Shown here: in pieces, positions 1 through 5,097 of the stretch
How the letters are laid out: every line of letters begins with the position of its first letter
How positions within the stretch are numbered: the first letter of the stretch is position 1
NCBI GenBank assembly: GCA_003557485.1
Contig: PWOI01000169.1
Location: 1 to 5,097 of the forward strand
Length of the DNA: 5,097 nucleotides
Reading direction: 5' to 3'
DNA from: Elusimicrobiota bacterium
GTDB taxonomy: Bacteria > CG03 > SLGR01 > PWQF01
Position numbers and translations under genes: made by a program
The notes under the pieces: generated by a model
What the model was told of the DNA's origin: nothing
Seen by the model: only the letters and a program-made list of their open reading frames with translations
Databases searched by the model: none

Positions 1-248
1 AGGTGGAAGAAGCATATTACACCCTTATAAAAGAAGAAGAGACAATAGCTGCCCTTGAGAAAAACGTGCGTCAGGCCGAAGAAGCTTTCAATATGGCCGA
101 GAGACGATACCGCGACGGGCTTATAAGCAACCTTGAGTTTATGGATACGGAACTTGACTATATGCAGGCCAGAATAAACCTGTTAAGGTCCAAGGCCGAT
201 TACATAATAGCAAAGAGCAGGCTTACGCTTGCATCCGGAGGGAGATAA
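1..248 (+). CDS. TolC-family outer membrane efflux channel, C-terminal fragment (5' end outside window)
   Basis: This is the last 81 or so codons of an outer membrane efflux protein; the reading frame is open at the window edge, so the GTG at base 3 is an internal Val and not a start. The fragment is almost wholly alpha-helical and rich in Glu, Ala, Arg and Leu. It carries the repeat-end pattern of the OEP family: helix, then RRYRDGLISNLEFMDTELDY, then a helix with Ala/Arg/Leu spacing, ending in SRLTLASGG. In TolC the G-[IL]-[IS] turn marks the return into the last periplasmic coiled-coil helix, which packs against the equatorial region. The protein stops directly after that helix, without the C-terminal tail seen in E. 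coli TolC. The adaptor gene starts 2 bases after the stop codon (TAA, 246-248), so this is the channel of the tripartite pump encoded downstream. Family assignment is firm; the length and signal peptide cannot be judged. Confidence 0.88.
   Translation, partial: VEEAYYTLIKEEETIAALEKNVRQAEEAFNMAERRYRDGLISNLEFMDTELDYMQARINLLRSKADYIIAKSRLTLASGGR
237..244 (+). promoter_or_regulatory. Shine-Dalgarno site that fixes the adaptor start at 250
   Basis: GGAGGGAG lies 5 bases before the ATG at 250, inside the last codons of the channel gene. A TTG in the same frame at 229 would add seven residues (MHPEGDK) but has no comparable upstream site. It would also put charged residues in front of an otherwise normal Lys-rich signal-anchor start. 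The ATG at 250 is therefore preferred. Confidence 0.75.
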
Positions 249-249
249 A

Positions 250-1152
250 ATGAAAAAAACCAAAATTATAGTGATATTGCTTGCGCTTTCGCTGGCGGCC
301 CTTGCCGTGCTTCGCATTCGCGAGGTGCGTCAGCAGGATGAGTCTCCTGTATCACGCGACACCAGGGGTATAGCTGTCCGTACTGAATATCCTCGGATAG
401 GAAATTTAAAGGTCACGCGGTCTTTCACAGGCGAGGTTTCAGGAAGCGACCAGGCTGTTGTATATTCCGAAGCACCGGGGCGGCTTCGCAGTTACCGGGT
501 AACGGAAGGAGAGAAAGTAAAAAAGGACCAGGTTATAGCGCTTATAGACCGCGAGATGACCGGTATGGATTTTGAACAGTTAAGGGTCAGGGCTCCCATT
601 GACGGGACTGTTACCCGGCTTTATCTTGGACGCGGAGATACGGTAAACCAGCAGACCCCTCTTGCGGTTGTTGCTGACCTTAAGAAAATCAAAGTTTCTT
701 TTCACATACCCGAAAGAGACCTGGGGCTTGTTAAAAGAGGAAATACTGCGATGCTTAGGGTAGATGCCTGGCCCGGAAAAAACTTTGAGGGTTCGGTAGA
801 GCGCATCGCCCTTTCACTTGAAAGATCCAGCCGCAGCGCTTATGCGGAGGCTGTTTTTGATAACAGCGGCCGCGCTCTTATGCCCGGTATGTTTGCGGAA
901 GTGGAAGTTGTATCACAAATTATAGAAGACGCTCTTCTTCTTCCTGAGAGCGCGGTACTGCGTGATCCATCAGGTGAGTGCCTATGTGTCTTTATTGCCG
1001 CAGATGAAAAAGCTGTCAGAAAAATTGTTGAGACAGGTTTCAGTCAGAACGATATAATACAGGTGGTCTCCGGCCTGGAACCGTCAGACAATGTTATAGT
1101 GGAAGGACAGGAATTTCTTGAAGACGGCCAGGCGATAAGAATAATAGAATGA
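250..1152 (+). CDS. RND efflux periplasmic adaptor (membrane fusion protein), hairpin-less type
   Basis: This 300-residue protein belongs to the HlyD/AcrA-like membrane fusion family, which holds an RND pump to its outer membrane channel. Residues 1-22 are a Lys-start hydrophobic segment with no lipobox Cys, so it is an uncleaved anchor or a Sec signal rather than a lipoprotein. The two lipoyl half-motifs are at about 70-101 (GRLRSYRVTEGEKVKKDQVI) and 112-142 (VRAPIDGTVTRLYLGRGD). The beta-barrel is at about 143-222 and includes the family signature LMPGMFAEVEV. The membrane-proximal domain is at about 227-299 (LLPESAVL, then VVSGLEPSDNVIVEGQ and EDGQAIRI). Only about 10 residues (102-111) join the lipoyl halves, where AcrA-type proteins have a long coiled-coil hairpin, so that arm is absent. 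This also explains the short length, since typical members have 350-400 residues. Borrelia BesA is a known adaptor of this form. An unusual Cys-Leu-Cys lies at 244-246. The stop overlaps the RND start by 4 bases. The specific substrate is unknown. Confidence 0.9.
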   Translation: MKKTKIIVILLALSLAALAVLRIREVRQQDESPVSRDTRGIAVRTEYPRIGNLKVTRSFTGEVSGSDQAVVYSEAPGRLRSYRVTEGEKVKKDQVIALIDREMTGMDFEQLRVRAPIDGTVTRLYLGRGDTVNQQTPLAVVADLKKIKVSFHIPERDLGLVKRGNTAMLRVDAWPGKNFEGSVERIALSLERSSRSAYAEAVFDNSGRALMPGMFAEVEVVSQIIEDALLLPESAVLRDPSGECLCVFIAADEKAVRKIVETGFSQNDIIQVVSGLEPSDNVIVEGQEFLEDGQAIRIIE

Positions 1153-4100
1153 AATTATACGAAAAAGCAGTAAAGAGAAAAGTAACATTCATAATGATGT
1201 TTGTTGCCGTAGTGGGTTTCGGTATTGTATCTCTTTTTCAGCTCAAGCCCGAGCTTCTCCCCGATATATCGATTCCGGCTGTTACGGTGTTGCAGACATA
1301 TTCCGGTGTCGGACCCGTAGAGATGGAATCGCTCATAACCCGGCGCATAGAACAGGCCGTTTCTGCTGTCAGCAGGGTTGAAAATGTATCATCTTCCGTA
1401 CAGGAAGGAAGGTCTACCACAGTTGTAGAGTTTCAGTGGGGAACAGATATGGAGGCGGCTGTAGCGGATATCAGGGAAGCTATGGACAGGGCCCAGCGCC
1501 TTCTGCCTGATGATGCGGATTCTCCTTTTATTTTTAAATTTGATTTCTCTGCTATGCCTATAATGATGATAGGCTTGAGCGGGCCTTTTGACCGCGCCCG
1601 TCTGAGGCAGCTCTCCGAAGATATAGTGGAACCTCGCCTTGAGAGCGTTGACGGGGTAGCGGCTGTCAATACAGGAGGCGGCCGCAGCCGCGAAATAAGA
1701 ATTGAACTGGATAGAAACAGGGTGGAGTCCCTGGGAATACCTGTGGGAAGCGTGATCTCCGCGGTAGGGAGCGACAATATAAACCTTCCGGGCGGCAGCG
1801 TGAAAACATCAAAGAGTGAATATCTTTTCCGCACCTCAAACGAATTCCGGAATTTAAGTGATATAGAGAATGTAACCCTTACTGTACGGGATGGAGTGCC
1901 GCTGACAGTAAGAGATATTGGACAGGTCAGGGATACCTTGAGCGATAGAGTCAATGAGATGACAATTAACGGTGAGCCGGGGGTAATGGTAACTGTGCAG
2001 CGCCGCTCCGGAGCAAATACGGTTGAAGCATCAAGGAATGTAAGAGAAGCGCTTGATGACATAAGACGGGAATTACCTGCCGGCGTGGATTTTGATGTGG
2101 TTATGGACAGCGCGGAGTTTATAGAGCAATCTATAGATAACCTTGCAAATATAGCTGTCCAGGGAGGGATTCTTGCTGTTTTAATACTTTTTTTCTTTTT
2201 GCGTAATATACGGGCGACTTTAATAATAGCCATATCAATACCGGTCTCTATTGTGGCAAGTTTTACTGCCCTGCGCGCCGGCGGAATAACGCTTAATATA
2301 ATGTCTCTTGGCGGACTTGCGCTTGCGGTGGGAATGCTTGTGGACAATTCTGTCGTTGTACTTGAGAATGTTTTTCGCCACAGGGAAGAGGGGCATACTC
2401 CGGATGAAGGAGCCGTATGGGGGACTCACGAGGTGGCAATGCCTATAGTCGCTTCCACGTTGACTACCATTGCGGTGTTTCTTCCTATTTTCTTTGTTCC
2501 TGGGATAGCAGGTATTTTTTTTAGGGAGCAGGCGCTTACGGTTACTCTTTCTCTGACAGTATCTCTATTTGCAGCCCTGACACTAATTCCTCTTTTGAGC
2601 TCTCTTCTTCTTAAAAAAGCGGTCAAACCGCCTTCGTCGGGTCTGGGTGCTAAGATAACTTCGCTGCTTGATTCTTTTGAGGGGGTTTATGAAAAAACAC
2701 TTAGCTGGTCCCTGAACCACAGGAAGATTGTTGTTCTGACAGTGGCTGCCGTTTTTATAGGTTCTCTGCTTGCGATTTATCCTCTCCGGTGGATTCCGTC
2801 GGAGTTTATGCCAAGAGTTGACGACGGAAATATAAATATAAATATAGAACTTCCGGTAGGAACAAGGCTGGAAGAAACTATAAAAAAAACAACGGAAGTG
2901 GAAGGGATTGCTATCGGTGAAATTGAAGAGATTGAAACCTCCCGCGCGCGCATAGGCCCGGCCGGATTTATATTCGGAAGCAGAACCGGGTCTCACGTTT
3001 CGCAGGTATCTCTAAATCTTATACCTGCAAGCCAGCGCAGCCGGTCCCAGGATGACATTGTAGAAATACTGAGAACAAAATTTTCGGATATTACCGGTGC
3101 AAGGGTCAGAGTGGGAAGCGGAGGCGGTATGAGAATGATGGGGGGAAGCGAAAGCCCTATAGAGGTTGAAATATACGGTTTTGACCTGGATACGGTTGCT
3201 TCCCTTGCAGAAAGAATAACTTCAATAATAGAAGATACTCCGGGTACTACAAATGTTCAGATGGGGATTGAAGACAGGCGGCTGGAATATGCGATGAGCG
3301 TTGACCGGAGGAAGGCCGGGCCTCTGGGCCTCACGGCCAGGGATATTTCATCCCAGGTAGAAGCATATATGCTTGGACGGACAGTAGGGTTTTACAGGAC
3401 CGGAGAGGACGAACATCCCATAACTGTCCGTCTTCGGGAGGAAGACCGCAGCAGCGTGATTCAGGTTGAAAACCTTCCTGTCCTATCTGCATCCGGACAG
3501 GTTGTTCCGCTTAAAAGCGTTGCCGATATATACCCGTCTGCAGGACCGGTTTCCATTAACAGGTATAATCAGCGCCGCCGGACTACAATTACCTCTGACT
3601 ATACCGGAAGAGATCTGGCAGGGATAAGCAGGCAGATAGAAAACGCCATTAACAGTGAAATAGTTGTCCCGGAAGGGTTTTCCGTCAGAATGGGAGGAGA
3701 AGTTGATGACCAGCGTGAGTCATTTTTCTGGCTCGCCCTGGCTCTTTTAGGCGCAATTCTTCTTGTATATATGGTTATGGCATCCCAGTTTGAGTCTCTT
3801 CTTGACCCTTTTATAGTACTTTTTACCATACCTATGTCGTTTATAGGGGTTGTCTGGATGCTTTTCTTTACCGGGACAAGCCTCTCTGTTATATCAATTA
3901 TAGGTATAATAATGCTCACAGGTATAGTAGTCAACAACAGTATAGTTCTTGTGGATTACATTAATCTTTTGAGGGCCAGGGGCCTCTCAAAGAGGGAAGC
4001 GGTAATTTCCGGCGGGCGTAAAAGGCTCAGGCCTGTGCTTATGACGGCTCTTACAACAATGCTTGCTATGACCCCTATGGCCCTGGGGTTGGGAGAGGGG

Positions 4101-4235
4101 GCTGAACTTAGCTTTCCGATTGCGCGTTCTCTTATAGGAGGTTTAATAGCCGCTACTTTTCTGACTCTCCTGGTAATCCCGGTTATATATACTATATTTG
4201 AATCCCGTATAAAAAGTAAGGAGAATTCGTTATGA
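1149..4235 (+). CDS. RND-superfamily efflux transporter (AcrB/HAE1-like inner membrane pump)
   Basis: This full-length 1028-residue proton-driven pump has the duplicated AcrB plan. TM1 is at about 12-31, followed by LLPDISIPAVTVLQTYSGVG at the start of the porter domain. TM2-TM6 lie at about 337-490, TM7 at about 527-545, a second porter half follows to about 855, and TM8-TM12 lie at about 858-1016. The proton-relay helix TM4 reads GMLVDNSVVVLENVFR: the first Asp is kept (D399) but the second is Asn (N400). In TM10 (GIVVNNSIVLVDYIN) the AcrB Lys940 position is Asn (N929). In TM11 the Arg and Thr equivalent to AcrB R971 and T978 are present as R959 and T966 (RLRPVLMT). The switch-loop equivalent is near GPAGFIFGSRTG (603-614). 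A Met-rich loop, GGGMRMMGG, lies at 658-666. The start is the ATG overlapping the adaptor stop (ATGA). No clear Shine-Dalgarno precedes it, so translation probably depends on coupling. The TM4/TM10 pattern resembles non-enterobacterial HAE1-like pumps more than heavy-metal CusA, so drugs, lipids or other hydrophobic substrates are more likely than metals, but this is not settled. Confidence 0.95.
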   Translation: MKLYEKAVKRKVTFIMMFVAVVGFGIVSLFQLKPELLPDISIPAVTVLQTYSGVGPVEMESLITRRIEQAVSAVSRVENVSSSVQEGRSTTVVEFQWGTDMEAAVADIREAMDRAQRLLPDDADSPFIFKFDFSAMPIMMIGLSGPFDRARLRQLSEDIVEPRLESVDGVAAVNTGGGRSREIRIELDRNRVESLGIPVGSVISAVGSDNINLPGGSVKTSKSEYLFRTSNEFRNLSDIENVTLTVRDGVPLTVRDIGQVRDTLSDRVNEMTINGEPGVMVTVQRRSGANTVEASRNVREALDDIRRELPAGVDFDVVMDSAEFIEQSIDNLANIAVQGGILAVLILFFFLRNIRATLIIAISIPVSIVASFTALRAGGITLNIMSLGGLALAVGMLVDNSVVVLENVFRHREEGHTPDEGAVWGTHEVAMPIVASTLTTIAVFLPIFFVPGIAGIFFREQALTVTLSLTVSLFAALTLIPLLSSLLLKKAVKPPSSGLGAKITSLLDSFEGVYEKTLSWSLNHRKIVVLTVAAVFIGSLLAIYPLRWIPSEFMPRVDDGNININIELPVGTRLEETIKKTTEVEGIAIGEIEEIETSRARIGPAGFIFGSRTGSHVSQVSLNLIPASQRSRSQDDIVEILRTKFSDITGARVRVGSGGGMRMMGGSESPIEVEIYGFDLDTVASLAERITSIIEDTPGTTNVQMGIEDRRLEYAMSVDRRKAGPLGLTARDISSQVEAYMLGRTVGFYRTGEDEHPITVRLREEDRSSVIQVENLPVLSASGQVVPLKSVADIYPSAGPVSINRYNQRRRTTITSDYTGRDLAGISRQIENAINSEIVVPEGFSVRMGGEVDDQRESFFWLALALLGAILLVYMVMASQFESLLDPFIVLFTIPMSFIGVVWMLFFTGTSLSVISIIGIIMLTGIVVNNSIVLVDYINLLRARGLSKREAVISGGRKRLRPVLMTALTTMLAMTPMALGLGEGAELSFPIARSLIGGLIAATFLTLLVIPVIYTIFESRIKSKENSL
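2828..2845 (+). repeat. Three perfect tandem copies of AAATAT inside the RND gene
   Basis: Three head-to-tail hexamers encode alternating Asn-Ile residues (N561 to I566) in a strand at the start of the second porter half. The repeat is in frame, so gain or loss of a unit would add or remove two residues without a frameshift. It may be chance reinforced by the ATA codon preference. Confidence 0.5.
4217..4223 (+). promoter_or_regulatory. Shine-Dalgarno site for the PII-like gene
   Basis: TAAGGAG lies 8 bases before the ATG at 4232, within the last codons of the RND gene. It supports the start that overlaps the RND stop codon. Unlike the RND gene, this small gene has its own strong ribosome site, so it may be made at a higher level than the pump. 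Confidence 0.7.
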
Positions 4236-4522
4236 AAGCCCTGATGATGATTTATAATGCCGCTATTGAAAGTATGGTCCTTGGATGTATGAAAGAGTGC
4301 AGCCTGAAATCATATACAAAATTCCCGGGTATACACGGCTCCGGAGAAAGCGGCGGCTCCAGGCTGGATACCCACGTGTGGCCCGGAATAAATAACGCGC
4401 TGCTGGTAGTTACTGAAGATGAGAATATACCTTCAATGCTGGAAAAAATCAGGAATTTAAAAGAGAGTTATCCGGATGAAGGTATTATGGCTTTTGTTTT
4501 TTCAGTTGAAAACAAGGTCTGA
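4232..4522 (+). CDS. PII-like (P-II/CutA-fold) small protein of the RND operon
   Basis: This 96-residue soluble protein has no signal peptide or membrane segment. The predicted order is strand-helix-strand, loop, strand-helix-strand, as in PII proteins: MKALMMIYN (strand), residues 10-24 (helix), SYTKFPGIHGSG (strand and turn), a short loop with LDTHVWPGIN (45-54), ALLVVTED (strand), 66-79 (helix), and GIMAFVFSVEN (last strand). The G-x-G turn after the second strand and the closing FVF-x-VE resemble PII FVLPVE. Compared with GlnB/GlnK the T-loop is much shorter, the uridylylated Tyr51 region is missing, and the basic residues that bind ATP and 2-oxoglutarate are not evident, so nitrogen signalling is unlikely. 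Cys19, Cys23, His35 and His48 could be ligands. As I recall, PII-like proteins next to RND or metal-efflux genes form a known but poorly understood group. The 4-base overlap with the pump and the private ribosome site indicate a role tied to the pump, perhaps sensing. The gene ends in tandem stops (TGA TAA). The family is inferred by eye. Confidence 0.68.
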   Translation: MKALMMIYNAAIESMVLGCMKECSLKSYTKFPGIHGSGESGGSRLDTHVWPGINNALLVVTEDENIPSMLEKIRNLKESYPDEGIMAFVFSVENKV

Positions 4523-4525
4523 TAA

Positions 4526-5097
4526 CTATTTGCCTTCCAGCAATGATCTGTAGATTTTCAGGTATCTTTTTGATATAGCCTCTGAAGAAAACTTTTCTTC
4601 AGCCGCTCTTCTGCAGTCTTCCGGATTGATCTCTTTTATTTTTTCAATAGCCTGTAGAATCTCTTTTTCTGTTTCAACAAGGAACCCTGTCTTGCCGTTT
4701 TCTATTACCTCGGGAGCAGCGCCTCTGCGCAGTGCGATTACCGGGGTTCCGCATGCTAGAGATTCCAGAAGTTCCATCGAAAAGGGTTCTTCCCAGCTGC
4801 CGAAATGTATGGTAGCGAATGCCTTTCGGTAAAGATTATGGCGCGATTTTCTGGGAAGGTCTTCAGTTAGGCGTATATCTGTTGACTTTGTGTCTTTTCG
4901 CGGCCAGGGTTTTATGCTGCCGTAATCCTGCTGCCGGCTTCCGTAAACAACATCGATAAGGCGCCGGTTTGATTTATCAGCGACTCTTTTTGCGAGATCA
5001 ATATCCTTTTTACGGTCATGGCTGCCGAAGTAGAGAAGGTAATCCTCTTTTTCGGAACCCCATTTTATTGTAGAGGTATCAACGCATTTGTAGACTG
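4526..5097 (-). CDS. GT4-family glycosyltransferase, C-terminal part (start outside window)
   Basis: The minus-strand frame is open from the window edge to the TAG at 4528-4526, giving 189 residues of the C-terminal Rossmann domain of a GT-B retaining glycosyltransferase. This domain binds the nucleotide-sugar donor. Numbered within the fragment, YLLYFGSHDRKKDIDLAKRV (19-38) is the first domain strand with its loop and helix. The motif WEEPFSMELLESLACGTPVI (101-120) holds the GT4 E-x7-E signature (E103 and E111). RRGAAPEVIENGKTGFLV follows, which in this family contacts the nucleotide and ends the donor site. The last 40 residues form the usual C-terminal helices returning to the N-domain. 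An in-frame ATG at 4777 falls inside the E-x7-E motif and so is not the true start. The donor and acceptor sugars cannot be told. The gene is convergent with the efflux operon and not part of it. Likely roles are surface polysaccharide or glycolipid synthesis. Confidence 0.9.
   Translation of the reverse strand, partial: VYKCVDTSTIKWGSEKEDYLLYFGSHDRKKDIDLAKRVADKSNRRLIDVVYGSRQQDYGSIKPWPRKDTKSTDIRLTEDLPRKSRHNLYRKAFATIHFGSWEEPFSMELLESLACGTPVIALRRGAAPEVIENGKTGFLVETEKEILQAIEKIKEINPEDCRRAAEEKFSSEAISKRYLKIYRSLLEGK

Follow-up and report, generated by a model that had tools for sequence, protein, structure and literature searches.

The window, the whole stretch of 5,097 nucleotides analysed here, is an entire contig from an assembly of 2.07 Mb in 212 contigs. 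Its source has as closest named relatives genomes that were deposited as MAGs of Elusimicrobia or of Candidatus Sumerlaeota bacteria. Four co-oriented genes on the plus strand encode a TolC-type outer-membrane channel, an RND periplasmic adaptor, an RND permease and a protein of 96 amino acids. As the contig starts within the channel gene, this gene is truncated at its 5′ end and is represented by its C-terminal 81 codons (positions 1-248; Pfam OEP, 2.1e-15); a complete channel gene occupies the corresponding place in the loci of relatives (L008-L010). The TAA of the channel gene (246-248) is followed by a single A and then by the ATG, at position 250, of the adaptor gene (250-1152, 300 aa; RND_mfp, 1.2e-55). 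The permease gene (1149-4235, 1028 aa; ACR_tran, 1.2e-253) and the gene for the small protein (4232-4522) each overlap the preceding gene by four bases (ATGA), so that the coordinates bear out the tight packing described in an earlier note on this DNA. A Shine-Dalgarno-like AAGGAG for the last gene lies within the RND gene (4218-4223). A convergent GT4-type glycosyltransferase gene on the minus strand (4526-5095; Glycos_transf_1, 2.8e-20) ends 3 bases past the stop of the small gene, and a simple scan from the small gene up to this neighbour found no terminator.

The small protein is a member of the PII superfamily, as the earlier note had proposed. It matches the NCBIfam model NF045581 ('PG0541 family transporter-associated protein') over residues 2-90 with 89.3 bits (E 1.2e-25), the curated cut-off being 45 bits, and Pfam P-II with 25.6 bits (E 1.6e-5), barely above the cut-off of 25. 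Pfam P-II is matched by 29 of 37 PG0541-type members, and a family profile made from these 37 both retrieved PDB chains of PII proteins (best E 4.5e-7) and aligned with E. coli GlnK (E 1.6e-5). An AlphaFold2 model of modest quality (five-sequence input; pLDDT 69, below 50 in the T-loop) has the elements E2-9, H10-22, E29-31, E53-60, H66-79 and E86-91, corresponding to a predicted beta-alpha-beta-beta-alpha-beta fold of the PII superfamily. The earlier note had staked its proposal on the predicted fold, and PII-like proteins top the lists of structural matches: the model matches TTHA0516, SbtB and CPII (Foldseek best E 1.5e-5; VIA-align Z ~10), with DUF3240 and CutA-like folds also present. DUF3240 was considered as a second PII-fold family beside RND genes and set aside, a single match in 290 genomes being uninformative. 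Against a copy from the same genus, the dN/dS of the small ORF is ~0.07 with changes falling mostly at third codon positions, which signifies strong purifying selection. Given this selection and the recurrence of the gene order in relatives and across Bacteria, the arrangement is more than chance.

The proposal also depended on the small gene adjoining RND genes beyond the source genome, and this was found to be so far beyond it. The upstream side could be read for 60 family members, of which 57 come immediately after an RND gene and one comes immediately before; the pairing with RND genes spans more than 30 bacterial families, and pump genes are the sole consistent neighbours. Within the phylum-level group of the source, the family is present in 5/16 genomes, each time immediately after an RND gene. 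The same position was seen throughout the phylum of L015 (deposited as Bacteroidota), where a match above the cut-off occurs in 17 of 296 genomes and in every case immediately follows an RND gene. Across Bacteria, 386 genomes, mostly of distinct families, were sampled and 46 have a family member. Of these, 39 loci outside the phylum of the source were examined and the small gene directly follows an RND gene in 35 of the 38 that are readable. In the converse count, a PG0541-type gene accompanies 4 of 77 background RND genes from outside that phylum. The remaining loci differ in their surroundings. In L091 the PG0541-type gene (8832-9128) lies directly upstream of an RND gene starting at 9132. 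In L077 (2813-3109) it has no RND neighbour and adjoins a TetR-like gene, and L108 (7766-8077) has a divergent family member, again with no RND gene, that adjoins glutamate-synthase-like and branched-chain ABC-transport genes. A genome scan with a narrow alignment of five sequences returned 5 loci only, its peptide patterns being too specific.

The partner RND permeases are scattered over several lineages of the RND tree, on which gains and losses are not to be counted because the PII-less sample is lopsided (the phylum of the source plus E. coli). Matches to the NF045581 type that fall below the cut-off include SbtB-like proteins encoded beside SbtA; the cut-off therefore divides two transporter-linked PII-like groups. 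At one such locus (L135:7220-8498), a PII-like gene that is a weak match of the PG0541 profile comes after a gene for a bicarbonate transporter of the Sbt_1 (SbtA) type.

The permease is AcrB/Mdt-like. A multidrug RND model gives it 739 bits and a CusA/CzcA model 552, both below the curated cut-offs, and its best solved match is MdtB. Alignment with E. coli AcrB places an Asp-Asn pair (2343-2348) at the D407/D408 positions of the TM4 proton relay. D407, R971 and T978 are retained, while D408 and K940 are each replaced by Asn, a pattern that is also seen in a PII-less relative (L138). At the positions of the three CusA methionines an equivalent Met is found at just one. An RxRG motif in the cytoplasmic loop between TM10 and TM11 is enriched in PII-linked pumps (46/59 versus 16/70 comparison pumps, uncorrected for relatedness); it was rejected as a docking signature since close PII-less relatives also have it.

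The adaptor, as had been claimed, is without an alpha-hairpin. A linker of 12 residues, EMTGMDFEQLRV (553-588), joins its lipoyl halves at the site where, in an alignment of 59 adaptors, AcrA-like proteins have the hairpin, and a model of the adaptor (pLDDT 81) predicts no helix there. Among proteins of solved structure, BesA from Borrelia burgdorferi is the closest in sequence (E 1.2e-25), and the three BesA entries head the structural list (Z 21.4-21.6 over 249-259 residues). The window adaptor is thus BesA-type, an already known kind, and a feature separate from the PII-like partner. The earlier note had known of no established case for an RND pump with such an adaptor and had counted the adaptor into its proposed system, which was an overstatement. 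In Borrelia, the RND pump BesABC is already known to have a hairpin-less adaptor; the study of it describes no PII-like partner and notes comparable adaptors in other spirochaetes and, as a rare occurrence, in proteobacteria (PMC3807786). Moreover, an insert of hairpin size (54-211 residues) is present in 43 of 59 PII-linked adaptors, from which it follows that the hairpin-less adaptor is incidental and not part of the system. In the phylum of the source, eight complete OMF-adaptor-RND operons without a PII-like gene (L137-L144) encode adaptors of 291-305 aa, lengths consistent with the absence of a hairpin, and hairpin-less adaptors look to be common there. At the other extreme of size, the PII-linked adaptors of L106 and L109 have a 211-residue insert between the lipoyl halves, far beyond a usual hairpin, and in both loci a second adaptor-like gene comes after the PII-like gene.

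The roles of Tyr51, the B-loop and the C-loop arginines are well established for GlnB and GlnK. The window protein stands outside this canonical type, which has a full T-loop bearing Tyr51 and, in its B-loop and C-loop, residues for ATP. When aligned with GlnK, its T-loop is ~6-7 residues shorter and Leu replaces Tyr51; the B-loop G-D-G-K is not retained, and the chain stops before R101 and R103, the arginines of the C-loop. GlnB and GlnK consequently offer no guide to the ligand. Lacking both a Walker-like B-loop and the C-loop arginines, the window protein is unlikely to be a classical ATP/2-oxoglutarate sensor. The suggestion in the earlier note of direct pump control by a metabolite, nucleotide or metal was accordingly overstated, the residues of a nucleotide/2-oxoglutarate sensor being largely missing. 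Possible ligands are an adenine nucleotide, bound in the manner of SbtB-type proteins, or something metal- or substrate-like. The equivalent of the T-loop, GSGESGGSRLDTHVWPGIN (residues 36-54; 4337-4393), with its motif WPG.N, is the best-conserved stretch of the family (2.39 versus 1.71 bits per column), and Pro51 is present in 46/46 non-redundant PG0541-type members. A T-loop H...H pair is conserved in some members; in the window protein Arg stands in place of the first His.

Taken together, we favour, with moderate confidence, a tripartite RND efflux operon that ends in the gene for its own dedicated regulator, a PII-like protein acting on the pump. The protein would form a cytoplasmic PII-type trimer and would sense a small molecule via its intersubunit clefts and shortened T-loop. 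The trimer could then dock on the cytoplasmic face of the RND trimer, locking or tuning the pump, in a manner modelled on GlnK on AmtB and SbtB on SbtA. RND permeases are trimers, and docking of this kind is the best-supported reading because PII-fold proteins encoded with a transporter are known to act on it, and on trimeric ones. The AmtB precedent raised in the earlier note is sound and can be extended: GlnK plugs AmtB and AMP-bound SbtB locks SbtA, both as trimer-on-trimer complexes, and a 2023 review describes PII control as apparently confined to trimeric transporters, with no RND pump among the targets (PMC10710835). The points for such a regulator are the PG0541 score, the PII fold, the frequency of pairing relative to background RND genes, its spread over several RND lineages, the conservation of the T-loop and the SbtB-like relatives below the cut-off. 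Against it stand the presence of RxRG in PII-less relatives, the modest model, the two members that lack an RND neighbour, a TetR-like gene as an alternative target, and a mirror-tree analysis in which PII-like distances were tied no more closely to those of the RND permease (partial r 0.28) than to those of the channel (0.30). More tentatively, PG0541-family proteins may in general be widespread cytoplasmic switches of PII type, binding RND trimers so as to adjust pump activity or substrate range to a cellular metabolite.

The TetR-like gene suggests a different explanation, in which the PII-like protein senses a signal and regulates operon transcription, perhaps through contact with a TetR-type repressor, rather than the pump. 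In 35 of 55 loci a TetR-like gene immediately precedes the operon (in one case on the opposite strand), Bacteroidota records show the order TetR-TolC-adaptor-RND-PG0541, and in L077 the TetR and PII-like genes are adjacent with RND absent. However, no TetR-like gene was found in the other 20 loci, which include the readable ones of the window's own clade, whereas the RND gene is nearly always present; the operon-adjacent gene in that clade is MarR-like in L009 and Clp-like in L010. We consider action on a repressor a genuine alternative, though an unlikely one. A role in metal sensing or handling, of the PII-NG or CutA kind, with a pump that exports metal ions, is similarly improbable. Such a role is consistent with the PII-NG proteins encoded with CzcABC metal pumps (PMC7726332), the DUF3240 and CutA-like folds among the structural matches and the H...H pair of some members, but the window permease scores better as a multidrug than as a CusA/CzcA pump, two of the three CusA methionines are unmatched and the first His is replaced by Arg. 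Finally, co-expression with the pump combined with action on some other cellular target, such as an enzyme, would accommodate the lack of a pump-specific coevolution signal and the setting of L108, and is quite unlikely given that only pump genes are consistent neighbours and that PII-like proteins encoded with a transporter are known to act on it (PMC10710835).

A regulator acting on the pump can be compared with several known systems. The window shares with other PG0541 family operons a score above the cut-off, the TolC-adaptor-RND-PG0541 order of annotated Bacteroidota and the position of the small gene beside a transporter gene, here with a 4-base overlap; it differs in its hairpin-less adaptor and in having a clade whose readable loci have no TetR gene. 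With GlnK-AmtB it shares the PII superfamily and the coupling of a small gene to a trimeric transporter, although the window protein has a short T-loop without Tyr51, G-D-G-K or R101/R103 and the transporter is an RND pump. SbtB is among the nearest folds, is encoded directly after its transporter gene and is of the type that the PG0541 profile matches weakly, yet it belongs to a separate sequence family and serves another transporter family, the neighbour in the window being an RND permease and not Sbt_1. PII-NG with CzcABC (Geobacter GSU2134-2137) likewise combines a PII-fold protein with a tripartite RND pump (PMC7726332). Compared by description, PII-NG is GlnB/GlnK-derived and encoded by the first gene of a metal-pump operon, whereas the window gene is the last and its pump AcrB/Mdt-like.

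With this published case and a family already named by NCBI, the system is not wholly undescribed, and the earlier note went too far in offering it as the best candidate for an undescribed one. The family is nevertheless functionally uncharacterised, and a demonstration that it controls RND pumps would be new. The literature searched, which covered few subscription journals, yielded no study of what a PG0541-type protein does, and PG0541 appears there only as a hypothetical protein. It is directly preceded by PG0538-PG0540, which we take to be XepCAB. In P. gingivalis, XepCAB exports rifampin, puromycin and ethidium bromide (PMC4790292), and another study brings up PG_0538 and PG_0539 in relation to efflux (PMC12382797).

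As protein modulators of RND pumps, the 2023 review lists AcrZ, YajC and WatS1, which are small and membrane-bound (PMC10710835). A PII-like partner probably allows adjustment of the pump from within the cell. RND pumps are among the main routes by which drugs and toxins leave bacteria. If PG0541-type proteins are indeed switches of this kind, RND efflux pumps would join Amt channels and SbtA as transporters directly controlled by PII proteins, and a dedicated PII-type partner in the cytoplasm would, in many groups of bacteria including gut Bacteroidota, couple efflux in real time to the metabolic state of the cell.
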